From Lophium mytilinum (Eukaryota; Ascomycota; Dothideomycetes; Mytilinidiales; Mytilinidiaceae), in assembly GCA_010093605.1 (NCBI GenBank), contig MU004198.1, positions 502,456 to 566,455 on the forward strand: a stretch of DNA of 64,000 nucleotides, in the 5' to 3' direction. This document shows positions 9,427 through 62,873 of the stretch, piece after piece; position 1 is the stretch's first letter, and every line of letters begins with the position of its first letter. A program made the translations under genes and the position numbers. Under the pieces are notes generated by a model. The model searched no databases. It saw nothing but the letters and a program-made list of their open reading frames with translations, and had not been told where the DNA came from.

Positions 9427-9864
9427 CTTATTATCGGAAGAATGTAGTATGTACCACCTCTCAATCTCTCCTCGATGTGCTGTGTCATCGATTGTCCTTG
9501 CAAGATACGTATACCGATCATAGCAGTGATTTTCAAGTCTGTGTTCCTCTTCACGTGGCGCTCAAGAGTCTTCTCAATACCATCATCGTTTGAGTGTCAT
9601 GATAACGTTACTTCAACGTGAAACGCGCTTTCATATAGTCATAGTGCGATCAGACACCTCTTCCTCCGCAGTCAGCGAATCTTGGCAAGCGTATATATGG
9701 GGTTTCTCAAGTTGCCTAACGGTCAATATTTTCTCATTACAACACAACCTCGAAATCAATTTCTACGAACCAGCACCGATACCAACCCCTAAATTTCACA
9801 AACTCGAAATCTTACTTTCGTCTCTGTACTACCAATTTGAAGCCCACCTTCACAACCCACAGCA
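9427..9864 (+). promoter_or_regulatory. Promoter and 5' leader of Met-Cys paralogue 1
   Basis: The 438-base gap holds a TATATAT at 9692-9698, about 167 bases before the ATG at 9865. The pyrimidine- and CAAC-rich leader between them resembles the leaders of paralogues 2-4. The two overlapping short frames here are not credible genes. The TATA-to-ATG distance is close to those of paralogues 3 and 4 (183 and 177). Confidence 0.5.
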
Positions 9865-11181
9865 ATGTGCCGCGCAAGATACTTCCAAGTCTCGTCAGAT
9901 GCGTCGAATTGCGACAACCCCACCGCGCACCGACACAATGTCGAGATCAAACCCTGCTCCGACAACGCGCCTGCCATGGAAAAATTCAAGCTTGAAAAAG
10001 ACAGATACTGTGTGCTCACCAGCGTGACGAAGTCATCATCCTCTTCCAACCAGTGGGGAATGAATGTCGTCAATTACAAATACCAATTCCACCTTGAGCA
10101 GCAGGCTGATCTTGAGCCCTGCCCGCAGTGGCAGAAGAGCGGCGAAGAAATGTTCCAGAAGAGTAAGCGGGCGGGGGGTCGAACCCACTACACTTCTACC
10201 CCTCCTCGGTATGAGGTTGAGCACAAGTGTCTCTCTTGCAGCCTTGAGAGAAAGGCTGCGAAAAATGCGAGAAAGGCTGCGAAGAACGTCAGTAGTGCTA
10301 CGAATGGAGGTGGAGAAAATATCCCACGAGCGGGCAGTAAGCCTGGCACTGCTTCTGCAGGAAAGAGTCCGGATATGGCGGCGGAGCTCGATGGTACGGC
10401 CGTGAACGCTGATGACGGGAAAATCCAACATGTTTCGGCAATGTACGCGGAGATGAAGCTGGAGACAGCCCCACAGACGAAGCCGGAGACGAAGCCACAG
10501 GCGAAGGTAGAGACAGCTCCAGCGAAAGCCCCAGAGATAGCTCCAGTAAAAGCCCCAGAGATAGCTCCAGTAAAAGCCCCAGAGAACACCCTGGAGAAAG
10601 CCCCAGAGGCGAAGTTAGAGGCAAACCCAGAGGCAGCCCCAGAACAAGCTCCAGAGAAAGCGCCAGAAAAGGCTCCAGAGATATCCCTAGAGTCGAAGCC
10701 AGAGGAAACTCCAAAGATAGCTGCCGAAGCAGCCCTAGAGACAGCCCCAGAGTCGAAGCCGGAGACGAAGCAGATAGCTCTAGAAGAACCCCCAGAGAAA
10801 ACCCTAGAGGCGAAGCCAGACGCTGCCCTAGAACAAGCGGCTGCACAAGTGCCAGAAAAAAGTCCAGGAAAAGCCTTGAAGACAAAGCCAGAGACAGCTC
10901 CACAGATAGCTCCAGAGCAAGCTCCAATGGTAGCCCCTGAGATGCAGCCGGAGACGAAGGCGGAGTCAACTCCAGAGAAAGTTCTAGAGACGAAGCCAGA
11001 AACGCCAGAGGCAGTCCTAGAGACATCATCGGAGGGGAATTTAGAGGCAGCTCCAGAGAAAGCTCTAGAGACGACGCCAGAGGCGAAACTAGAGGTAGCG
11101 TTAGAAACGAAGCTAGAATCGGAGACTACGAGCACTACGACGACGCCTCCTGAGCCAGACAAAGAGCCTGCTAAGGAATGA
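9865..11181 (+). CDS. Met-Cys family paralogue 1, with long Pro/Glu-rich repeat tail
   Basis: Single exon, 438 residues, function unknown. The first 125 residues form a Cys/His-rich head shared with three downstream genes: MCRARYF, a Cys at about residue 16, HRHNVEIKPC, a Cys-Pro at about 86, and a CxxC (HKCLSC). The spacing suggests a zinc-binding fold, but I do not recognise a named domain. From about residue 185 to 430 the protein is a degenerate repeat of units like KAPE, TKPE and LETAPE (for example KAPEIAPV twice in succession), strongly charged and predicted disordered. No signal peptide or membrane helix is visible, so it is probably intracellular. The repeat also opens a long antisense frame (10188-11186), which I treat as an artefact. 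Head homology to neighbours supports the start at 9865. Confidence 0.75.
   Translation: MCRARYFQVSSDASNCDNPTAHRHNVEIKPCSDNAPAMEKFKLEKDRYCVLTSVTKSSSSSNQWGMNVVNYKYQFHLEQQADLEPCPQWQKSGEEMFQKSKRAGGRTHYTSTPPRYEVEHKCLSCSLERKAAKNARKAAKNVSSATNGGGENIPRAGSKPGTASAGKSPDMAAELDGTAVNADDGKIQHVSAMYAEMKLETAPQTKPETKPQAKVETAPAKAPEIAPVKAPEIAPVKAPENTLEKAPEAKLEANPEAAPEQAPEKAPEKAPEISLESKPEETPKIAAEAALETAPESKPETKQIALEEPPEKTLEAKPDAALEQAAAQVPEKSPGKALKTKPETAPQIAPEQAPMVAPEMQPETKAESTPEKVLETKPETPEAVLETSSEGNLEAAPEKALETTPEAKLEVALETKLESETTSTTTTPPEPDKEPAKE
10440..11150 (+). repeat. Coding minisatellite for Pro/Glu/Lys/Ala-rich tail
   Basis: Imperfect repeats built on CCAGAG and GAAGCCAGAG hexamer- and 18-base-like units. The clearest pair is two exact adjacent copies around 10531-10580 (GATAGCTCCAGTAAAAGCCC). 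Units stay multiples of three, so the frame is preserved throughout. Slippage-prone; length polymorphism between strains is likely (inference). Confidence 0.75.
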
Positions 11182-21400: not shown

Positions 21401-22685
21401 TCAGGCATCTGCATTCCATAATGTCGAGTTCAGCGTGTCAAAGGTGGCAGCAAAAAGCAGTCCGTCCAGCTGTAGTCTACCGTGTACAATTCTGGATAAA
21501 AGCAATCCGCATAATATATATATTAAATTCTAAGCTTCGTCCACAACTTCACACCACGCTTTGCCTCATCACATGTCTATCACGAGGTCTACACCCCATT
21601 TCCGCCCCCAGATCTAGAAGTACATGACAGCACCTGAGAAACGCATGTGGGAACATCTGCAGATGCACGATTGGAACATGTCTGCGGCAAGAGAACCAAT
21701 GCCACGATGTCGATGGTCTGAATTCTTCGTCGTTTCCCTCTGCTGCACCAACCAGAGCCAAGTCCAACAGCTGTGGCACCATCATAACGTGAACTGGCGG
21801 GTTCCTGCGGCCACCAACAGGCTGGTACCGCCATACTGCGCTTTTCATGACGACCAAGATCGACAAGCATTTATATATACCAAGGGCTGAGATAGGGCTT
21901 GGTGTCCGTTAACCGCATGCGGATAGCCGGCGTCAACGGGCTGCGCCGGGCGAATTGAGGCGTGGCAGACCCCGGATCCAACTCGTTGCTGTGTGTTTCA
22001 AGCGTCGGGTGTGCGCAGGGGAACGCAGCGACTTGGTGGTGCGTCGAGTGCCTGGTTCCTGGAGTCTTTTTAAGCGCCCGTTTGGCCGCCAGCCGGGCCG
22101 TCACAGGTGCTGATAGCGCGCATTGGTGTGAGCACTGGTGAAGCTGCGCCGCACGAGGGTCGTCATGCAGCATCCGACGAAGTCACAGCAGCAAATGGAC
22201 GCCTCCGGAAGCGCACACGCCTCTCATACGCCTGATACGCCGCCGGAAAGCTCGGCCAGCGCTGCCGCTGTGACGGGCGAGGGTCCAAGCGGTGGAGGGG
22301 GATAATTCCCAGCCAACCACCACCCAAGCCAGGGCGTCGACAAGACCTCTAGCCGTTGCGCATACGACCCTTTTTCTTCGTCTCCTGCAGCCCACAAGTC
22401 TTCTTCACAACATCCGCACTCCTCTCCTGCCTGTCTGCATTTCCTGGCCTCCAGATCTTGTCGCGTGTTGGTTTTCTTTAAGACGAAACAGAGCTCCATC
22501 TCATTGCATCCGAGCTGCATATCTGCCCACATCCATGCTTACTTTCTCGTAAACCGGCGACAGACATCTTTCCAGCGTCAAATCACCATTCTTGAGCTTT
22601 GCGAATTCATTTTCTGTGAGGCAATTCTTGCTTCCGTTGCTCGACCTTCAAATCCTACAGATATCGCCGAAAAGCACACACCGCC
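21401..22685. other. Intergenic region upstream of the PLAC8 gene
   Basis: About 1.3 kb. Overlapping frames on both strands at 21549-21890 and 21871-22173 have no motif and contradict each other. The last 250 bases are rich in CTTCTTC and CATCCGCA tracts and probably form the promoter and long 5' leader of the PLAC8 gene. No repeat or RNA gene was recognised. Confidence 0.35.
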
Positions 22686-24325
22686 ATGTATCCCGGACAG
22701 CCCCCACAGCAGAACCCCCGCCAAAATCGACCTCAGCAACCTCGTCTCCAGCTCCCAGACCGACAACACAAACGCTTTTCATGGCAGGCCTCGACCGAGG
22801 ACGTCTCGAAGCCGGCAAATGGCCACCGTGCCACTGGATCTATGGACAGTCAGTGGTCATACGAAGACACTCCAATTCACATGAAGGGTGGCCATCCTAG
22901 GGATCCCATCCAACGACTCGCACGCGAACCCGATATGTCGACTATTGCTCAATCACCCGTCACCCCCATTGACACACGACCTCAGTCTATCTTCAACGCA
23001 CAGATACCTCAGACGGTGACGGTACCGGTACTTTACGCTGCGAACGAATACCCGCCCGAGAAGTCTGGGTCAGCGTTCCAAGGACCTCCTCCACCACAGG
23101 CACCGCATCCACCACAATCGCCCGTAAGCCCACTGCCAATTGGGTATCCCCAGGAGAAGCCCTCCTCTCCCTACAATGTCCCGCCTCCTTCGCAAACACA
23201 TCCAGCAATGTACGCACCAGTCGCCGAATCTAGGACCCCGGTATCGCCGCTCCCCCAACACCAAAGAGCATCTCAGTACGCACCCGTCGCAGAACCCAGG
23301 ACACCCGTATCGCCACTCCCACAGCCAGAGCGAGCATCTCAGTATGCCCAACCACAGCAACCGCGAGCATCCCAATACGCCCAAGAGCCTTCCCACCAAA
23401 GCATACGCCCCCAAAACATCCCGCGCCAAAGCCTCCCCTTTATGCCCACTCCAATCCAAATCCCCTCCTACACCCGTCAACGCACCCCAAACCAGACTCC
23501 CATCTCCCCTAGCCGCATCCCAGACCTCCCCAAAACCCCCCTATCCGCCCACTCCGCCGCCCCCTACTCTCGCACCCCCGTCTCGCCGCCTCACTCCCCC
23601 GGCGCCCTCCCACTCAAGAACCCAATCGACTTCGACCTCCCCTCACCGACCTTTATGAACCGCCAGCGCCCCCTCTCCTCCCACACCGACGCCCCGTACT
23701 CCCCCACCTCCGCTCTCTCGCCACAAGTCCCCGTGTTCTCGCCGAACGCGCCGACGGGGCCGAATGGACTGGAGCTGGAGCGGCACCAGCCAGGGCAGAT
23801 TGCACACCCGAATATGGATTTGAGTGCAAGAGGAGAGTCGCATGAGTGGAAGCATGGGCTGTGTGAGTGCGGCAGCGACGTAGGGACGTGTATGACAGGG
23901 CTGTTTTGTCCATGTGTGCTTTATGGGCGCACGGCGTACAGGCTCTCTCAAAGAAGCCAGAAGAAGGATCCTACGGAGTTGTTGGGGTTCAGTGCGTTTA
24001 ATGGGCAGTGTGGGGTTATGGCTAGTGCATGTGGGATTTGGTGTAAGTCATCCCTCCTTGAGCGCTAGAGGAAAGAGACGCTAATTGTTGTAAAGGCTTG
24101 TTCCCGCTAGTCCAGCGGACACGCATCCGACATCTCTACAAACTCACCGGCTCCCTCTTCTCCGACATCGGAAAGGCATGCTGCTGCTGCTGTTGCGTCG
24201 CCATCCAGAACGAGAGGGAGATTAGAGATCGAGAGGAGAGCTCGAGACGGTGGGCCGGCCCGGCGAATGCGGAGACGTACAGTGCGCCGGGACAGATGGT
24301 GTACGCGCCGCCGCCAAGGGGATAA
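22686..24325 (+). CDS. PLAC8-family Cys-rich protein with long proline-rich N terminus
   Basis: PLAC8 (DUF614) proteins are small Cys-rich membrane-associated proteins linked to metal resistance and cell-size control in plants. The C-terminal domain reads WKHGLCECGSDVGTCMTGLF, CPCVLYGRTAYRL, then GVMASACGIW. A 53-base intron (24043-24096) follows, then CLFPLVQRTRIRHLY and KACCCCCCVAIQNEREIRDRE, the second Cys cluster and the NERE signature. The first 380 residues are a Pro/Gln/Ser-rich, probably disordered extension. It carries repeats such as APVAEPRTPVSPLPQ and RASQYAQ that are not part of the usual family, whose members are often under 200 residues. Stop TAA at 24323-24325. The protein, about 530 residues, is likely anchored at the plasma membrane by hydrophobic segments inside the Cys-rich domain (inference). 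Confidence 0.88.
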
Positions 24326-24784: not shown

Positions 24785-27700
24785 ATCACGGTGTTCACTC
24801 TGAATTGCACCTCCATCATGAATCTTGCAAGTCTGTTTTGTTCTCTACCGACCCATGGCGCATCGTCGTACGCCCTGTCCAGCGCACCGCCCACACACCC
24901 CCCTCCAACTCCATTGCATCCAAGTCAACAGTCGTTGATCTCCCACCGAACACCATATACCTTGGAGCAGTTCCGTGTTGATCAAACCACCCACAGCCTC
25001 CGACGACTCTATCAATATTGAGCCGTTGTGTTGTTGATCCCATGGCACCCTCTCGGTCGAAGATTTTGATCGAACTTCCCACACCCCTCTCCACCCATGA
25101 GTTTCGAAGAAAGAGGTTTTGCAATCTCCAACGACTCCATGTTTCTTTATGTCCTCTCTGATTTCAATGCAAGGAGCCGAATCTCTTCCAACTCCATTGC
25201 GAATAGGTGCCGGTAATTCCAAACTCTCCAACAACTTCATAAGCGAATTCCTTCATCTAGTTTCGATGAAACAAGCCAATACTTCTCCAACTCCATGTTA
25301 GCGATAGATAGTGAGTTTTGTTTCGAACTCTCCAGCGCATCCATATTTTTCTTCCAATTTCTGATTTCGATGCAACGAGCCAAATCTCCTCCATGCGGAC
25401 TATTCTAAGCAGGGTATGTGTCGGGCTCCCCAACGCCTCCATAGGCATACCTCACTTTCCGAGTTCGATGCGACGAGCGAACGCTTCAGCGTCCCTCCGA
25501 CTCCATAGCCCTCTAGAATGAGAGTGTTCACACCCTCCTCCGACTCCATGAAGGTTAGTGTAAATGGCTATTTGATCTCCCAACAACTCCATTAGTGTGT
25601 TACGAGAGGTTTGTTGATCAAATCCCCCAAACCTCTCTCCCAACCATTCCAAGTAGGAGATCGATTTCTCAATCCACAACGACTCCATTATTCGCTTTTT
25701 TTACTGATCTTGATGAAAGTATAGACAGCTTCTCCCAACTCCATGCAAGGAGGGAACGAGCGGTTTGAACCCTCCAACGACTCCATCGCATACTTTTGTT
25801 CAACTTTTAATGCAACGGGCAAACCCTCCGGCGTCCCTCCGACTCCATTGGCTTTCCTTTCTGGACGATTTGGCACCCTCCACCAACTCCATCGGTATCA
25901 AACCTAGGTCTTTTTATGCGACGAGCCAAAACGCCCTCTGACTCCATGTACTTTTCGTAGTTTTGTTTCGATCTCTCCAACAACTCCATATCGATGTAAC
26001 TGGTTGTGATTTCGATGCAACGAGCAAACGCTCCTACATCGCTCTGGCTATTGAATAGTTTGCTCGGTTGATTTGACCCACTCCACCGACTCCATAGTTG
26101 ATGGCAGCGGGAGATTTTGACGGAACGAGCGAATGCTCTGGCGTCCCTCCATACCATGATGGATTGGGCTAGGTTGAGCTCACACCCTCCACTGCCTCCA
26201 TGGGGCGTAGCATATGTACAAGATGTTTTAACGCGGCGAGCCAACCCTCTTCGAACTCCATTTCAGGCTGTGGAAACCCTATTTGAACCTTCCAACAATC
26301 CATCGGTTGCCGCGTCTTGACGTTTTGAAGTAACCTTACACCCCCCTCCAACTCCATAAGTCTACTCCCAGACTTGTTTCGAACTCTCCACTCACTCCAT
26401 TAAGTCACACAAGGCACAGGCTTGATGCAATGAGCGAACGCTTCAGCCTCCCTCCGACTCCATGAAGTTGTATCCATAGTCAATTTGACACCCTCCACCT
26501 CTTCCATAAATAGTGTTGTCTGAATAGGATGTTTTGACACAAAGAGCCAACCCTCTTCCAACTCTATGCACGATTGCATCAACGGCAATTTGAACTCTCC
26601 ACCGACTCCATCAATCGGCAACTTGACTTATGTTGATGCCACGAGCCAACACGTCTTCCCACTGCATAATTCTTTTTCTTGTGCCAATTTGATATCCTCC
26701 ACCGACTCCATGAACGTGTGTAGTATTGGTGATGTTGATGCCACGAGCCAACACCTCCTCCGACTCCATATGTCTGATTTCTGTAGCGGTTTGACACACT
26801 CCACCGACTCCATGAAACTATGGGATCGGAATGTTTTAATGCCACAAACTAATCTCCGACTCCATAAGTGGTTTCATCTGCCAATTCGACACACTCCACC
26901 AACTTCATGGAAGGTGGCATCAGGCTAGGATGTTTTGACACAACGAGCCAACAAGTCCTCCAACTCCATTCTGCGAACTGGACGTTTTGGTGCGATGAGC
27001 CAACACGTCTTCCGACTCCATGAGTGGATAACCTCGTGCCGATTTGAGAGACTGACACACTCCACCAACTCCATGGGTTTTCGGATTGGGAGCTTTTGAT
27101 GCGACGAGCCCAACCTCTTCCACCTCCATGCAAGTTCTGGCTTTGATTTCAAATCCTCCGCCAACTCCATTAGTGGTTCTCCATCTTTTTTTGATGCGAC
27201 AAGTCCAACGCTCCAACTCCATAGTTCATACCAGCAAGCGCAATTTGACCCTCCACCGACTCCATGAGTCGTATATACACTTGTTTAATGCAACAGGCCC
27301 ACAAGTCCACCAACTCCATAAATCGATATTCTTGTACCGACTTAACACCCTCCACCACCTCCATTGAAGTCTAGGGTCGGGTGCTTAGAATGCAACAAGC
27401 CCGACCTCTTCCAACTCCATGGTAGCAGCGTACGCCTTAGTTTTCAAACTCTCCACCAACTCCATGTTACACCATCTGGTCGACTTTGATGCGACGAGTC
27501 CAACACTCCAACTCCATACGACACCGGTGAATGCCATTCGAACTCTTCGCCGACTCCATAAGCCGTAAGGTTATGAGTGATGCAACGACCCAACCCTCTT
27601 CCCGACTCCATATCCGCTTTCTTGCACCAAGTTGACTCACTCCCACCGACTCCATGAGACATGGGTTCGGACTATTTTGACACAACGAGCCAGCCCTCCT

Positions 27701-28002
27701 CCAACTCCATCGGTCTCTCAATTGTATCGATTTGACACCCTCCACCTGCTCCATCACATATAAAATGTGGTGCTTTGACACAACGAGCCCAACCTCTTCC
27801 AACTCCCTAAACTATGCCGGTGAATGTATTTTGAACCCTCCACCGACTCCATGCGTCGGAAAGTGATTTGTTCAATGAACGGACCCAAGCGTCCTCGGAC
27901 ACCATGCACCAGTCGTACAACATGGTTTGATCTCCCACCCCGACGCCATGGGTAGCCCGGTTGTTCGTTTTGATCCACCCAGCCAACCTCCCAACTTCCC
28001 AT
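24785..28002 (-). repeat. Alternating block-and-spacer tandem array, about 60 half-units
   Basis: Seen on the plus strand, each half-unit ends in a conserved CTCCAxCTCCAT. Two block types alternate. Type A (35-40 bases) carries GATGCAACGAGCCAACA then CTTCCAACTCCAT. Type B (about 24 bases) carries TTTGACAC then CCTCCACCGACTCCAT. Between blocks lie 16-21-base spacers that are mostly unlike one another. Half-units are about 43 and 57-64 bases long, about 100 bases per A+B pair. I read 33 consecutive blocks from 26357 to 28002, with one break in the alternation (two A blocks near 26920-27020). A longer A subtype (GAACGCTTCAGCGTCCCTCC) ends at 25506, 25848, 26155 and 26462, a higher-order spacing of 307-342 bases. 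On the minus strand every half-unit starts ATGGAGT, but unit lengths are not multiples of three and no long frame survives. I know no matching family. Confidence 0.85.
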
Positions 28003-28258
28003 GAGAAAGAAGGTCTGAGACGCTGAGGGATTGGGGTTATATAGGAGAAAAGAAGTGACGGACGCAGGGGTTAGTCAGCACGCGTGTGACACCTGCGATG
28101 ACATGGCAAGATACCACCGCACTGATCACAAGAGCAAGATCGGGAAACATCGGAACGAACATCTCACATGCCGGGATGATACGCCTGCTAACGTACTACA
28201 CTTTTACCCCTCACCGCTCCTCCTCCCCCTATCAATCCCCCCCTATCAACCCCCCCTA
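28003..28258. other. Spacer between array and RRP5
   Basis: About 255 bases between the right end of the array and the RRP5 stop codon. It contains the TATATAA (minus strand) at 28038-28044 and C-rich sequence near the RRP5 3' end. The plus-strand frames here are antisense to RRP5. Confidence 0.4.
28038..28044 (-). promoter_or_regulatory. TATA-like element at the right end of the array
   Basis: The plus strand reads GGGGTTATATAGGAG, so the minus strand reads CTATATAACCCC. It lies 36-42 bases upstream of the first minus-strand half-unit (ATG at 28002), the direction in which every half-unit begins ATGGAGT. It is a plausible core promoter for array transcription; this is inference from position only. 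Confidence 0.35.
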
Positions 28259-31200
28259 CTACTCCCCCTCCCCCTCCCCTTCCGCCTCCCTCCTCTCCAT
28301 CCACTCCCTCTCCACCGCCCTCACCCTCTCCACCCCCTTCCCACCCTCCTCCCCCTCCTCAAACTCCACCCACCGTCTAAACACCACCCCCGCCCGCCTC
28401 CTCTTCACCCTCCCCTTGACCATCCTCTCAAACAACCCCCTCACATACCCCCTCTCCCCATGCGCCCGCTCCAACTCCACATACACATCCCACGTATCCC
28501 ACTTCCTCGGCTGCGCCGCGACTAACCCCTCGAAAATCGTGCGCCCGCGCTCCGCATCCCCGTTCGGGGACTTGTACTCCAGCGCCGCGAACTTGGTCGT
28601 CAGCTGGCGGTGCAGAGCCGCGGGGACGGACTGGGTAGCGCGTTGGAGGAGGGCGCGGGCGCGGGTGGGCGATGGGGGCGTGAGGGTGGTCATGAGGAAG
28701 GTGGCGTAGGAGAGCCAGAGGGTGGGGGAGGGGGTGAAGGATTTGTTCTTGATCATGGCTTGGTAGAGGGAGTCTGCTTTCTGTAACGGGATCTCTGTTA
28801 GTTGATGTTTACTTACGTGAGGGAGATATGTGGAAAGGGGGGCTTACATCAAGCTTCCCAGACGAGATATAGATCTTGATCAAGCGGTCATGCATCTCCT
28901 GCGCGTTATTATACTGGCACGCCTCCTTAAACACCTCGTCAACGGCGTCGGCGCTGCTGAAGTCGTTCTCGAGATGTAGCAGCGCGGTCCACACGTCCAG
29001 CTTCGCGGCTTCTTCGCGGGGGAAGATGGAGGAGAGGGCGCGCCGGGCGATTTGGCGCGCTTTTTCGATCTCGTTGAGTTCGCGCTGGAAGACCATGTAG
29101 CGGACCCACAGCTCGGCGGAGTTGGGCTGGCCCATTAGGAGGCGCTCGAAGTCGGCGACGGATTGGGGGCCGTTCTTGTCGAGGTCGCCTGTGCGGTCGA
29201 TCTTGATCTCAGGTTTACGGTGCTTTTTCTTCTTTTTCGTGGCGTCCGCGGAGGAGTCGGAGTCTGATCCTGCGGCGTTGTTGTTGAAGCCGAGGTCGGT
29301 GCTGTTCCAGTCGAAGCCGGATGTGCTGAGACCGAGGACGGCTTTCGTGGAAGGCTTTTCGTCAATTTCCATTTCGTCGGCGGCATCAGACTCCTCGTCT
29401 GATACGTCATGGACATCTCTCGTGTCGGCGTCGTCTTCTGAGGCTTCGCTTTCGGAGTCGGCGTCTGACACTCCTTCCATGAGATCCACGCCACCGATCT
29501 CACCATCCGAATCACTCCCTGCGGCGTCCTCTGAGCTACTCTTAAAATAAGAGTACTTTAGGCCTAAACTGATTCTTCGCAACTTGCTGTCAACCTTTAG
29601 AATCTTGGCCTTGACTGCATCACCCTCTTTGTATAAGGATGCGAGGTCCTCGACTTTCTCATCGGCAACCTCACTGTGATGACATAGACCACTGACGTTG
29701 TTCGAATTATCGACGACAATGAAGACACCGAATTTCTCGACTTTCCGGACTTTGCCTGTGACGATGTCGCCCTTATTCAGATCGTTGAACTCGACAGGAG
29801 GGACATAGTCTTCCACCAGAACAGAAGCTTTCAAACTCATTGAGATTTGCTTCTTCTTGCTGTCAATTGAAGTGATTCTGCCAGTGACAAGCTGATCAAT
29901 CTCGTATAAACTCTTCCAATCCTTGATATAAGCATCAGAAAGGTCGGAGACACGGGCATATCCGACGATGTCGAGACCCAAGAAGATGAATAATCCACTG
30001 TCAGCAACCCTCTTTACAAAACCTCGTACAACTTGGTTGGCCGTTAGTTGAGAGAACTCTGTGATTTGCGGATCCTTGACGGGGAGAGAAGAGCTGAGAA
30101 CGTTTGAAGGCCTCGTGGAGAGTACGACCTTCTTGTTCGGTACATCCACGTCGACAACGCAAACTCGAATGATATCTCCTCTCGCATGAACGGTCGGATT
30201 TGCTTGAGAGTAGTCGTCGGCGAGTTCGGTAAGGAAGACACGTCCTACAATATTTTCGTTGATTTGAACAAGAACAGTAGACTCTGTCACTTTTAGAACG
30301 AGTCCTCCTACCACCATCCCCTTGTTGAGGTCTTTCAATGTAAGTTTGTTCTGCGAGGATTCGACGGCAAGATCTAGTCGGTTGGATGCAACATCAACAG
30401 CTTTGACAGAGACCTGGAGAGCGGTGCCGATTGGGAAGTTCTTCTCGACATCTGCAAGCAACGACACATCATCGGACAGATCCATGAACTCGATTCTGCC
30501 ACGCACGACAGGCGTCAAATTGACCCAGAGGTAGGTTTCTCCGATATGGTTGACGAACGCTGTCCATTTGGATCCGACAGTTACATTTTCCAAGGTAGGG
30601 ATTTCTTCTGCCGAAGCCAATTTTGGGAGTTTCTTGGCACTGAGTTCGTAGACTGGATTCCTCCCCTGCCGATGAGAGATTGGCAAGAACCTGTGATTTT
30701 TCGCGTCGTGGAATCCTATTATCCTCACTTGAACAATCTGATTGGCATGGAACTGTCGAAGCGGGCGCTTCTTATCTCTGATTTCGTCCCAAGTATCGAA
30801 CGCCTCGGTGGCATATATCCTGCCGTGAATGTTCTCGGAGACTTGAACATTCACTTGCGTGCTCTTCACTGATTTGACGCGAACAGAAATCGTCTTTCCG
30901 AATTGCAAATCTGTGACCGCCTTGATGGAGGAGTCTACAGCCTCGACGATCTTTAGCTCTTCCTTGACAGGCGTCGGGGGAATCGCCTCGGCTACATCGT
31001 CTTTACTCTTCATGGTGAGCAAAAATTGACGCTTGCTCTCGTCTATATCAAGTACTCGGGTCGTGATGGACTGATATTGACGAAGACCAAAATCCGGAAG
31101 CTGGGCCATCTCGCTGGTCATTTGAGACTTCAACAACAGGCCAACCATTCCGCCAGCGAATTCGACGAAGACTCTTCCTGCTTCGATCGCCCGAACAAAA

Positions 31201-33762
31201 CCATGAGCCTTTTGACCTTTTACAACGTCTTCAAACTGTGTAATTAACTTCTTTGCTCGTGCGTCCTTGACAAGGCTAGGTTTATTTGTGAGGCCCACAA
31301 TTGGCTTCTTATGGTTTTTCGATAGAACCACCAAGTCTCGTAACGGACGGCCAACTTCTACGCGCTCTAGTGCGGACTTGTTCTTCTTTTCAGAGCCGTC
31401 TGAAAGCTGTGCGAGCCTGATGATGCCCCTGATTCCGTCTCCAAGGTCAACAGTCACCGAGTCTGCTGACTTCTCCTTGACATTGCCACCAACGAGATCT
31501 CCAAGTGAGATCTTTTCGAAAGCAGTCTGACGCTCAACATCCGCAGACTCCGGATCTTTGCAAGAGACGACCAGCTTCTGGTCTTCGCCTTTCAACTCAT
31601 TCGAGAGCACTCGAACGTTCACCACCTGCCCGACCCGGAAGTGTATGGTAGGGTCATCGATGTAGGCTTCGCTCATTTCGGATATGGGCAACCAGGCCTT
31701 GATTTCGCCATAGAATTGAACAACAGCTCCAGCGCTCGTGACTTTCATCAGCGTACCTGGAGACTTCATGCCAGAGGTGATTTTGTCGTAATCCGTCCAT
31801 GGCTGTGCTTCTGAGTTGACCAATGATTTCTTCAGAGTAAGCCGTATTTTTCGTCTGCTGAGATCGACGGCAAGAACTCTTGCTGTGACTGATACACCTT
31901 CTCTAAACTTCCGGTCGGGGTGTGATAGATGAACGTCAGCAAGGTGCATTTCTGGAACGACACCTGTAATTCCTTCTGCTAGGTTGACGATAACAGCCGA
32001 TCGTCCTTCTCCAGTGGCAATCAACTTTTCGACTTTACCCTTAACGATCTGACCAACCTGCACGTCCTCGTGGCGGAAGAACGGCTGGTCCAGGACACTC
32101 GTTTCTAGAGAGACCAAATATAGCCCATCCATAGGGTTGTAACCAATGACGCGAGCCCGGTGTTTCGACTCAAGTTTGTAAGGACCTGACGAGTCAGTCA
32201 AAGACTCGATTTTCTCGTTACTGATTCTTGATATGTGAGCAAAGGCCCGAAGGCCCTTGACGCCGACGTCAAGAAAAAGCCCTGTAGTAGGCTCGACCTT
32301 GGTCACCCTGGCGTCTTCAACAATGGAAGATATCTGGAGAGCATCTAACGGGTCCTTGAGGTCCTTCTTCTCCGTGCGAGGGGCCAATGCGATGACATGA
32401 TCTAGCAAGGAGACACCAACCTTCCTGGGCTCGCTGTCCGGAAAGGTGCATATGACTCTAGCGCGACACTTTGATCCGATCTTGTACTTGTCAGAGAGAT
32501 TGGCTTTGCTCACAGCTGCGCCAGATTGGAAAAGATCCGCAGTGGCATCTAAAAGGCCCATCAGCTTGCCAGTAACTCCTTCGGTCGATGTGTCAGTAAT
32601 GAGCACTTCGACGGCTGTTCCGGGTAGGAAGAGGTCGATATTAGGGGCCTGTCCTAGGAAGGCAAACTTTTTGGGGTTGGCGGCTTTTTCGTGATCTGCT
32701 GACAGTTTGATGATTCTGCCGTCGGAGCTGAGGCCAGTAACCAAGCACAAGAAGACTGCACCCTCCTGTACTAGAGAATGGTCTATTTGTGAACCCAACT
32801 CTTTTGACGACATAAATCCCCTGACAGTCTGGTCTTCCAACCCGATATCCATGACCAGTCCATGTTCTTCATTGCTAAGCACAGACGCCTGTAGCATGCT
32901 GTTCTTCACGATGTCGGACTTCGAGATGCCTCGGTTGACCAGCGTAGGATTGGTGGAGAGCTCTATTCGTTTCTTGCTTCTGGCAATCCCCTTCTTGTTT
33001 TGCGCCCTCTCCGTTGCTGTAACATAGGCTCGCAAGTATTGACCCACACGAAAGATCTCCTTTAGATCAATGTCGTCTTCTTTATCAGAGCCAGCAGCGT
33101 CCTCGTCTCCCTCGTCTTTTTCCAAGAGCTGCTCTATCCTGCTGGTGAACTTGTCGGATATAGCGGTGAGGGGAATGAATCCGGAGAGATTGTTCGGGAG
33201 CGCGAGAACAACATCTCGAGAGGTAATCTGTGTAACCTGTCCAAGGACCATAGATCCAATAACGAGTTTCTGCGACTAGTCAGTAGTGTTCAAGTCGTCG
33301 GCGCAAACTGCTCACTTTGTAGCTCAGCCCCTCAATCTTCAACACAGGCTCTTCCGGCAACTGTGCGTCGGCCTTCTTGTCCGCCTTCGATTTCTTGTGC
33401 TTCTTGCCCCTTCGTACTTCTGGTTTTGGTTCACCATCATCTTCATCCTCGCTGTCCTGGCCTTTTGTGGTCTTTTTCTTCGCAGATTGCTCGAACAGGA
33501 CGTCCTGGGTCGCCTCGATCTGAATCTGCTTGTGTTCCAAGGGGGTAAGAACACTAGCGCCACCTCGAGGGAAGGATGTCTCCTCGCTCTTCAAAATCGT
33601 GTTCTTTGGTAAGTTTCGTACGTCCGACGTTGGCTTCGCTTTGCTTTCGTCGGCGGTCGATTCGACTTTGCGCTGTCGCTTCGAAGCGCGATTGTCGGAC
33701 GAATGCTTGATTTTCTTTGCCTCGGAGCTTTCGCTATCCGCGCCTCGTTTCAAGGGCGCCAT
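28259..33762 (-). CDS. RRP5-like rRNA processing factor
   Basis: Large nucleolar protein needed for both small- and large-subunit pre-rRNA cleavage. The start at 33762 (MAPLKRGADSESSEAKKIK) opens a basic/acidic N terminus with EDEDDGEPKPEVRRGKKHKK. A short intron (GTGAGC...CGCAG, about 33267-33316) joins SYK to KLVIGSMVLGQVTQI, the first S1 RNA-binding domain. About a dozen S1 domains follow (GIRGIIRLAQL, GLFLDVGVKGLRAFAHISRI, GVFIVVDNSNNVSGLCHHSE). Then come an acidic linker, a Lys-rich stretch (TKKKKKHRKPEIK), and C-terminal HAT/TPR repeats starting DFERLLMGQPNSAELWVRYM. A second intron (about 28772-28847) leads to KADSLYQAMIKNKSF and WDVYVELERAHGE. Stop at 28259. Length near 1,790 residues agrees with yeast Rrp5 (1,729). 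Confidence 0.95.
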
Positions 33763-60800: not shown

Positions 60801-62873
60801 CTAGTCGCATGATGGATGTCGAAACATTCCAGGCGTGCGGTTAGGTTGATGGCGGCTTTGGGCTGCTCTAGCACTCAGGAACGCAACTCTGGTACAAACG
60901 TCAGTGTTACATCTAAGGCAATAGATAGATAAATCATGATACTCACCAACTGTATCATGGCTATAAAGCTCGCTTTGGTATTTGATTGGCTTGATGTCAT
61001 AGAAGACAGGGTGCGCCTTAAACTCAGGATAGACGCGGAGGATCTCTCTCCTGACTTGCCTGATCTCCGAGCAGTCTTCGAGAGCTTTCAGATAATGGTC
61101 CACATAGAAAAAAGAATCCTTTGCCCGGCGCTCAGTGACTAATTTGCCGATTCGACTACTACAGACGGGACAGATTGCATGCTCTAGGACGCGCACTAGA
61201 TCTGGGGAAGTGTTCCTAGAGATGCTCCAGACTTTCCAGCTATCTCGCGGTAGATCAGGCATACGGCCTTCGGGAAGAATGCTCTTCATGTAGCTCGAGA
61301 AGGCGATGGCATGCTCGTTGCCTTTAGCTCCGTGTGACTCCATATGCAGGGCAAAAGCCTCATGGTCAACCGACTTGGAAGAGCAAACTGGGCAAAGAAC
61401 GTCGCAAGCCCTTGCATCATAGCCCATTCTTTTGAGGACAGATATTTGCTCGAGACGCTCTTTGCCTGTGTGTCCCCGGAGATGTTCCTGCATTTCTCCG
61501 ATGGGAAGCCATTTTTCGCAATTTCCAAAGAGGCATTGGCGTGAAGTGTTCTGTGCATTGAGAAACGCTCTAGTTCGATTGTCTAGATACTTTGGCATTG
61601 TCCTGTCGTGGCGATCCATGTGCACTTTGGCGAGATCAAATGACATGGTGCCCGCTTGACACCCGGATTCATAGCACTGCCATCGATCGTCGTCTGTATG
61701 TGCTGTCTTTAGGTGGTTGGTCAACTTGTCAAGGCGATAGAAAGCTCCACTTCCCGTTTTGTCACATAGTTCAACTGGACACGAGAACATTCTTTTACCT
61801 GTGTGCTTTTTCATGTGCCTTTGAAGCTCGTACTTGCGTTTGAACGTGCGCCCTGAACCGCAACCGGGATGTTCGCATCGGAACGCATTGGCATTCGGAG
61901 AAGTTCTGATTTTATTAGCACTGTTGCATGGGTAAGAGGCTGGAGGGGCGATGATACTTTTCTTTGGTCGGTTTGGTCTGGCTCTCCCCAATGATTATGC
62001 CTTGGCTTACGAACTGGAAACCCGTGTCGTCACCGAGAGTGATGTTCCTTCGAGGCAAAATAGACTTGTTCAAGTGTGGTGTCTCTAAATCATTAGACTC
62101 CGGCGTCGCATCTCCGGAAGGACCATCGCCATTATCGCTCAAGCTCTGAGGTGGTGGTGTTGACTCATGAGACTGAGTAGAGTAGCTGCCGTTCATGATC
62201 TGCCCAGAGTTTGGAAAGGGTGGCAATGAGAGTGCTTCATTGGCATCGCCAGACGGCGCACCAAATGCTGCAAGAAGCGGGTTTAGATACGGATACTGGA
62301 TATCGAGCCTTTGCTCTACGAAGGGAGTGTTTTGCAAAGATTGGCTGGCTTCGTGAGAGCCATCAGTAACATAGGCAAACCCCTGAAATGGTGGGATGGG
62401 AGCACTGAGTGTCATGAGCAAGTTTCCATAGGCGCTCTGGTCATACTCCGGGCGGGACCAAAACGAGGCTGTGTCGCTGCGACTGCCTAGCCAAGCTCTC
62501 AAAGGTGTCGTAGTCGAGTTCGAATCCGCATAAGGAAAGCCGAATGCTTGCTCTACAGTACGAGATACTCCTAGAGATTGGTCGGTACCATGGCAACATG
62601 AAAGGTTGCTAAGATCCCAAGGCTGTGCTTCATATGCCGAGGGGCCTCCTAGTGGAAATTGGAAGCTTGCGGGATTCTGTTGAGCCTCAGACGGGAAGTT
62701 GGGTGCAGCCTCAGGAATCCTTTTTGCCCTTTGTTAGCCCCTGTCTTTTTTTTTAGCGCTTACCCGCTTCCAGCGGATGCATCGCCCTGGACTTCGCCCT
62801 CTCCTCGACCCCCTGCCAGCAGCTGCTCCCAGAAGGCAGGATCTTCCTGGAAGAAGTCGATGAAGTCGCTCAT
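60801..62873 (-). CDS. C2H2 zinc-finger protein (putative transcription factor)
   Basis: Putative nuclear regulator. The ATG at 62873 begins MSDFIDFFQEDPAFWEQLLA, acidic and aromatic like an activation segment. A 46-base intron (about 62721-62766) joins AGSG to IPEAAPNFPSEAQQNP, followed by a long polar region. A second intron near 61914-62014 removes the stop at the exon end and gives TSPNANAFRCEHPGCGSGRT. At least three C2H2 fingers follow: CEHPGC-FKRKYELQRHMKKH, CPVELC-RLDKLTNHLKTAH, CYESGC-DLAKVHMDRH, then CLFGNC-MQEHLRGH and two CPVC pairs. The 3' end is ambiguous. Without splicing it stops at 60801; a GTGAGT donor near 60946 with an acceptor near 60889 would instead end at 60875. Between 590 and 630 residues. 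Target genes unknown. Confidence 0.8.

Follow-up and report, generated by a model that had tools for sequence, protein, structure and literature searches.

A block-spacer array in Lophium mytilinum that looks like an expanded member of a scattered, apparently non-coding repeat family

What keeps short blocks alike in a tandem array whose intervening sequence has drifted close to saturation? The question is raised by a locus in a 64-kb window (the whole 64,000-nucleotide stretch of DNA analysed here), for which a preliminary description had reported about 60 half-units at 24785..28002, with two repeat types alternating almost without error between mostly dissimilar spacers. The array has proved real, with ∼55 half-units of two alternating block types, A and B. 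We have placed it at 24896..28002 on the minus strand, in whose orientation a half-unit consists of ATGGnG, a G-rich linker, TCAAA and ∼20 unconserved bases. The right border at 28002 has been retained, and the stretch 24785–24896 is doubtful as array, because the matches at 24896–24916 are weak (5–6 bits) and the first strong one occurs at 25099. The preliminary description lacked further features of the locus, namely its reading on the minus strand, a TATA box where the array ends on the right, spacers of fixed length and a family spread over the genome.

Block structure and history of the array

Profile models, which were trained on hand-picked copies and then found the same copies, have returned, inside 25099–27951, 24 matches of type A at E ≤ 1e-4 and 28 of type B at E ≤ 0.05, while the best match outside the array in the 64-kb window has reached 6.3 bits. 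The independent word TCCRACTCCAT has been found 16 times in the window (expected 0.08), always in the array and always on the plus strand, and all 13 matches of the A block in the 43.2-Mb genome (≤3 mismatches in 21) are located inside the array. When 54 pieces are typed by score, the ABAB order is kept except in four runs (BBB, BB, BBB and AA). Long pieces of 96 and 106 bp, probably with a further A inside, occur in two of these runs. The reported alternation has thus survived with four exceptions, at a slightly lower count of half-units. Read on the plus strand, the majority blocks are TTTTGATGCAACGAGCCAACCCTCCTCCAACTCCAT for A and TTT(C/G)ACACCCTCCACCGACTCCAT for B. TTTGA...CTCCNACTCCAT is common to both, with ∼12 extra bases in A, and the two types represent versions of a single unit. 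The step from A to B measures 44.5 ± 2.6 bp and that from B to A 56.3 ± 3.8 bp (23 each). Regular A-B dimers of ∼100 bp make up the right half (26508..27949, minus strand), in which a higher-order repeat of six half-units (∼295 bp) is clearest, and the left half (25141..26507, minus strand) shows the same layout less regularly, with an A subtype carrying ∼8 extra bases (ends at 25506, 25848 and 26463).

Conservation is concentrated in the blocks. With two pieces of more than 70 bp left out of the count, the information content amounts to 42.6 bits in the A block and 27.7 bits in the B block, compared with 3.1 and 1.1 bits in the respective spacers of 19 columns each (25 rows for A, 27 for B). 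The copies have been anchored on ACTCCAT, which favours that end; a sum by hand places ∼27 of the 42.6 bits of A before the last ten columns. Same-type pairs of the right half, compared at lags of 2–16, are 67–80% identical in their blocks and 43–56% in their spacers, as against 52% for shuffled spacers, the pieces here being typed by length, which has counted at least one long B as A. Both the alternation of two conserved blocks with diverged spacers and the near saturation of the latter have accordingly been borne out, and the uniform divergence along the unit that had been named as the observation to set against this picture is not what the alignment shows, either in bits or in identities. 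Block conservation next to nearly saturated spacers argues for constraint on the blocks. Mantel tests, run four times (r −0.06 to 0.13, p 0.05–0.68), have shown no clear decay of block similarity with distance, and local conversion is therefore not needed.

The dissimilarity of the spacers among each other holds insofar as they lie near the shuffled level, but it is incomplete. At a distance of six half-units (∼295 bp), spacers resemble each other more than permuted ones do (z 3.6 for the whole array, 4.4 for the right half), and in neither case has any of 2000 permutations come as high. Since spacers are alike in this higher-order register, some at least have been inherited by duplication and have then drifted, and the array appears to have grown by the copying of a ∼295-bp piece with drift following outside the blocks. 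The suggestion that spacers were acquired or replaced is unsupported so far, given this kinship and the outcome of the search against the genome that had been proposed along with it: three array spacers, allowed ≤2 mismatches, have matched only themselves and, for two of them, one further place with two mismatches, and controls give at least as many, so that no target has emerged above control level. Within the 267 kb compared, 65 family spacers and 18 array spacers have one 14-mer match elsewhere. RIP indices of the spacers (0.90 and 1.01) have been unproductive on so little sequence. The spacers of 25141–27949 are poor in TTA (9, expected 17.7) and TAA (8, expected 14.2) under a first-order model. 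An apparent rarity of stop codons in the spacers (34 vs. 49 on the minus strand) is mainly due to TTA and, with TAA rare too, has been set aside; a wobble-like change on one strand has been rejected, as its p of 0.0007 by cells becomes 0.20 by columns.

Fixed gap, scattered family and promoter

A single rule governs the array in minus-strand orientation, namely [ATGGnG, variable-length G-rich linker, (G)ATCAAA], ∼20 unconserved bases and the next ATGG. The gap from TCAAA to ATGG amounts to 19, 20 and 21 in 5, 9 and 4 pairs of the array (18/26). Among family pieces, gaps of 19, 20, 21 and 22 have been observed in 11, 40, 14 and 5 of 165 pairs (65/165 at 19–21), as counted over 38 pieces, some of them overlapping, on both strands and for gaps of 0–60 with duplicates removed. 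The background, which serves for gap and promoter alike, is formed by the rest of the window, three other 10-kb pieces and seven other loci, and there gaps of 19–21 have been seen in 1/37, 0/13 and 0/12 pairs, respectively. Permutation has yielded 240 motif pairs with a median tallest bin of 3, and the eight that reach the highest values (10–50) all share or shift the real motifs. The gap itself is not conserved: the first base is A in 35/40 family spacers of length 20, later columns carry ≤0.16 bit, and spacers fold no better than shuffles, alone or in context. The linkers joining successive elements vary from 12 to 65 (32 cases). Two short motifs across an unconserved fixed gap are known from the V(D)J recombination signals, which resemble the array in this respect and differ from it in their gap of 12 or 23 and in not being tandem.

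The family has been reached through two block-word matches on another contig (843 kb on C1) with starts 58 bases apart. Among eight block-word loci besides the array, only this one resembled a member, and its surroundings (L098 and L119) contain several like-styled units that are oriented as on the window's minus strand and adjoin TATA boxes. The pattern ATGGAGN{3,33}GATCAAAA occurs exactly at 40 places in the genome, compared with 5 for the reversed control; three of the 40 lie at the C1 place and none in the window array. Family loci have been picked by this unit pattern, and promoter and gap have played no part in the choice. In family orientation a unit reads ATGGnG, G-rich linker, GATCAAA(A), with a linker composition of 45% G and 13% C over 30 fetched loci. 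Further units are found 28 times on the same strand vs. 10 times on the opposite one (23 vs. 4 if three rows of one place are omitted). Fixed-gap sites on the better strand number at least one in 21/30 loci and at least two in 15/30, and the 9/30 loci where none is present may be chance matches. The array contains no exact pattern match and, before its TATA box, no exact CACGTG; what makes it a member is the gap rule, together with its TATA box and the style of its units. Because fixed gap, orientation and scattered module are shared, we consider the array a family member rather than a lone minisatellite, apparently an overgrown one in a family of scattered and seemingly non-coding units. An old functionless minisatellite, with blocks kept alike by short conversion tracts, has next to no chance of being the explanation: tandem duplication is indeed shown by the higher-order repeat and the degenerate array edges, but other loci, of unrelated sequence and with a phased promoter, show the same element and gap, block similarity lacks a clear distance decay, divergence along the unit is uneven and the family extends over many loci. 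The example shows that an odd tandem array, seemingly alone, can belong to a dispersed family as its overgrown member. BLAST with the array and with the C1 locus has found only these themselves (one candidate scored per search), the family has been detected here neither by BLAST nor by Rfam, and no description of such arrays has been found in the open-access PMC literature, outside which subscription papers and preprints mostly lie. At another locus (L140, contig C9 of G000, ∼1360300), eight fixed-gap sites within 3 kb, with neighbouring units that look alike, constitute a second tandem array of the family, well suited as a test case.

A TATATAA box at 28037..28043 (minus strand) reads into the array, and the first ATGG starts 41 nt after the first base of the box. 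The first unit after it (27968..28002, minus strand) is near the genome-wide consensus (ATGGGAAG...GGATCAAAA), and the second (27926..27949, minus strand) is ATGGCGTCGGGGTGGGAGATCAAA. Among the 39 TATA-like sites listed for the window, this box is the only one with downstream units. At 28079..28086 (minus strand), 43 bp before the TATA box as counted by hand, CACGCGTG represents a variant of the family's CACGTG, which we take to be an E-box. In the family pieces, CACGTG is present ≤110 bp upstream of 29/61 strict TATA sites and downstream of 1. Of 37 upstream distances, 29 belong to three classes, 24–25 (7), 33–37 (13) and 42–46 (9), which have been named after the data were seen; the remainder are 31, 59, 63, 64, 89, 105, 106 and 108, and the distance of CACGCGTG at the array is in phase with the 42–46 class. 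Within 60 bp upstream of strict TATA sites, 29/31 distances fall into the three classes, corresponding to the helical period, and a Rayleigh test at period 10 has given p ∼1e-7 (37 distances, looser TATA set). The farthest CACGTG of each promoter belongs to the three classes in 4, 13 and 8 cases with none between (25/25 promoters), in a set where only distances of 24–50 are visible. No conserved bases have been found upstream of CACGTG in these 25 promoters.

The promoter stands in a consistent orientation to the units. CACGTG-TATA within 450 nt on the same strand lies upstream in 10/30 loci (two sharing one promoter) and downstream in 0/30; on the opposite strand it appears in 6/30 upstream and 2/30 downstream regions, and in the window in 0/280 tiles. 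A unit obeying the strict rule follows within 500 nt at 15/31 E-box TATA sites vs. 10/62 other TATA sites (Fisher p 0.002), the other 16/31 E-box TATA sites having none within that distance. After the family TATA, a C/T-rich stretch is followed by G-runs from ∼+40. GC skew over 26 promoters is ∼0 before TATA, +0.19 to +0.30 over five bins of 50 nt starting at +50, and below zero beyond +400, a profile that is partly due to promoters facing each other. Six convergent pairs of E-box promoters are 648, 670, 776, 795, 856 and 1459 bp apart (the last enclosing others), and five divergent pairs 147, 147, 175, 190 and 475 bp. Four E-box promoters within 1.8 kb at L119:4667–6465 form two convergent pairs back to back. 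The spacing of five of the six convergent pairs at 648–856 bp is reminiscent of a two-ended element, and the family might represent remains of non-autonomous transposons with inward promoters and subterminal transposase-binding repeats. This is very improbable, given that inverted pairs in five convergent regions are confined to the sites of the TATA boxes, a single short unit match and a weak pair of 20 nt (75%), that no terminal inverted repeat has been identified in those regions or, as conserved bases, upstream of CACGTG in the 25 promoters, and that the array and the C1 locus each retrieve just themselves by BLAST, with one candidate scored each.

Least credible of all is a protein-coding gene with repeated exons. 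Every unit starts with ATGG, and the first ATG that follows the array's TATA box begins a frame of 82 codons (27757–28002, minus strand); against this, dimer lengths modulo 3 are even (7, 7 and 9 of 23), no frame is kept across units, the 82-codon frame is without homologue, and first-ATG frames after 31 E-box TATA sites span 2–101 codons and are mostly short (middle value 20). Splice signals are not enriched at family promoters (2 downstream, 2 upstream). One family unit (L098:1209–1254) encloses GTAAGT...TTACAG, a possible fungal intron.

Candidate roles of the element

The explanation that we prefer, tentatively and at not quite an even chance, is that the array would be an expanded member of a family of non-coding RNA polymerase II transcripts that are multivalent for a protein. 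A typical member would carry a promoter of CACGTG and then TATA in helical phase, with tandem elements from ∼+40, each having as its constant part GATCAAAA, ∼19 unconserved bases and ATGG, and with variable-length G-rich linkers between elements. The family promoter, probably served by RNA polymerase II, would make the elements into RNA, and this RNA may act as a multivalent platform, of which the array would offer many sites. One RNA-binding protein or complex would then contact UCAAAA and AUGG over the measured 19–20-nt gap, comparable to the repeated sites of NORAD or meiRNA for one protein. Of the promoter that such a multivalent long non-coding RNA would need, the TATA box at the array and the phased E-box at family loci are candidate parts. 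RNA is favoured because the orientation downstream of the promoter is consistent. The strict 20-base gap favours B-DNA or a measured RNA product; that such a gap suits B-DNA no less than it suits flexible RNA counts against the platform. Against it also stand the array's want of an exact pattern match and of exact CACGTG, the CACGTG-TATA found on the opposite strand, the loci without fixed-gap sites, the E-box TATA sites without a strict-rule unit, the unenriched splice signals and the missing RNA structure.

One may alternatively postulate that the element acts as DNA, with a protein or dimer on CCAT and TTTTGATC contacting one helix face at sites about two turns apart. The arrays would in that case be clustered operators or barriers just inside transcription units, feeding back on promoters, polymerase or fork passage. 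We regard this as possible, if somewhat unlikely. A gap of 20 ± 1 without sequence preference is as found at two-contact DNA sites, the CACGTG-TATA spacing also has a helical period and no RNA structure has been found, but the consistent orientation to the promoter is unneeded for DNA operators, linkers between elements are not fixed, and the A-block core on its own, at 8 sites of which 3 belong to the array, has not proved commoner than its control at 7. A protein-binding array and a non-coding RNA precursor, both put forward at the outset, have stayed the leading readings of conserved blocks between near-saturated spacers.

The measured gap would also suit a small-RNA or guide precursor, in which cuts near UCAAAA and AUGG free RNAs of ∼19–20 nt, one per spacer. 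Fixed spacer length, unconserved spacers, constant flanks and the orientation downstream of promoters agree with such a precursor; the shared ancestry of array spacers in a higher-order register, the lack of a genome-wide target above control level for the three array spacers at ≤2 mismatches and the missing folding signal do not, and we consider it improbable. Rated a shade lower is a eukaryotic repeat-spacer system of co-regulated transcripts, in which constant signals would frame active hypervariable segments of 19–20 nt, serving as small RNAs or addresses. Constant parts alternating with unrelated spacers of fixed length are also a feature of CRISPR arrays, to which the preliminary description had noted a superficial resemblance. 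Spacer length is fixed here as well, and the differences are that the host is a eukaryote, that the repeats vary in length, that array spacers have a duplication ancestry seen at a lag of six, and that the three searched in the genome have shown no target above control level. For CTCCACCGACTCCAT, 82 stretches of viral contigs have been counted, the 80 listed having one match each, and a phage collection has given four weak matches; both have been discarded.

Several other identities have been set aside. No consensus RNA structure has been found on either strand of the array, folding shows no excess over shuffles and Rfam has no match for the array; tRNA and known structured RNA families have been dropped. 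Transcription of the whole array by polymerase III has been rejected because, of the only two minus-strand TTTT stretches (25928 and 27762), the one at 27762 would stop it after 250–280 nt. An enrichment of B-boxes (6 vs. 1.0 on the minus strand) is by eye a block subtype. Two-tier G-quadruplexes are numerous on the minus strand (43 vs. 24.7 ± 8.1), yet absent from some copies; four GG runs are present in 14/30 family units.

Should the family be transcribed, it would form a class of fungal non-coding genes that are co-regulated and carry a ruler of their own; changes of gap length make the reader molecule of this ruler testable. The family would be defined by its grammar alone, that is, a phased E-box and TATA, then a motif, 19–20 free bases and a second motif.

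Known systems and the neighbourhood of the array

Among described systems, the mammalian lncRNA NORAD has a ∼3.5 kb core of ancient tandem units of ∼300 nt that have diverged except for short Pumilio-bound motifs (PMC4947167). The array, with ∼3.1 kb and a repeat of ∼295 bp, is similar in size and in presenting short motifs in tandem in otherwise diverged sequence. NORAD units contain a structured stem-loop and known Pumilio sites (PMC4947167), whereas the array and its family have no structure found, a putative protein, a fixed gap, a promoter rule and many loci. The non-coding meiRNA of fission yeast (sme2) lures the RNA-binding protein Mmi1 by many copies of a short motif (PMC4077057). The likeness is one of concept, a repeated short motif in a fungus, here known from DNA alone; the meiRNA motif is UNAAAC, and the cited excerpt mentions no paired second motif or fixed gap (PMC4077057). 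On the minus strand of the array TNAAAC is counted 7 times vs. 3.0 ± 1.8, short of a clear enrichment. Region B of the fission yeast fork barrier RTS1 comprises four repeats of a protein-binding motif over ∼450 bp at one locus (PMC10473836). It resembles the array as repeats of a protein-binding motif, RTS1's own, in fungal DNA and differs in that no promoter family is reported for RTS1 in the passages considered. Satellites of Meloidogyne likewise keep conserved short boxes in otherwise diverged tandem repeats with higher-order repeats, and they are satellite families for which the passages at hand give no promoter or fixed gap (PMC3694981).

The RRP5 gene (28259..33275, minus strand; main ORF 28809–33275, C-terminal part 28259–28843) sits before the array's TATA box in the same direction, and its ORF is 100% identical to a Lophium mytilinum protein and 89% to one of Mytilinidion resinicola, which makes Lophium (Dothideomycetes) almost certainly the host. 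Farther away in the window, an ORF at 60801–61994 (minus strand) has a C2H2 zinc-finger match below the curated cut-off, and tandem repeats of 12 and 24 bases at 10471–10942 lie inside a long ORF (9841–11181, plus strand) without Pfam match. On the other side of the array, a PLAC8-domain ORF (22620..24068, plus strand) points towards it and contains repeats of 66 and 33 bases at 23210–23384.
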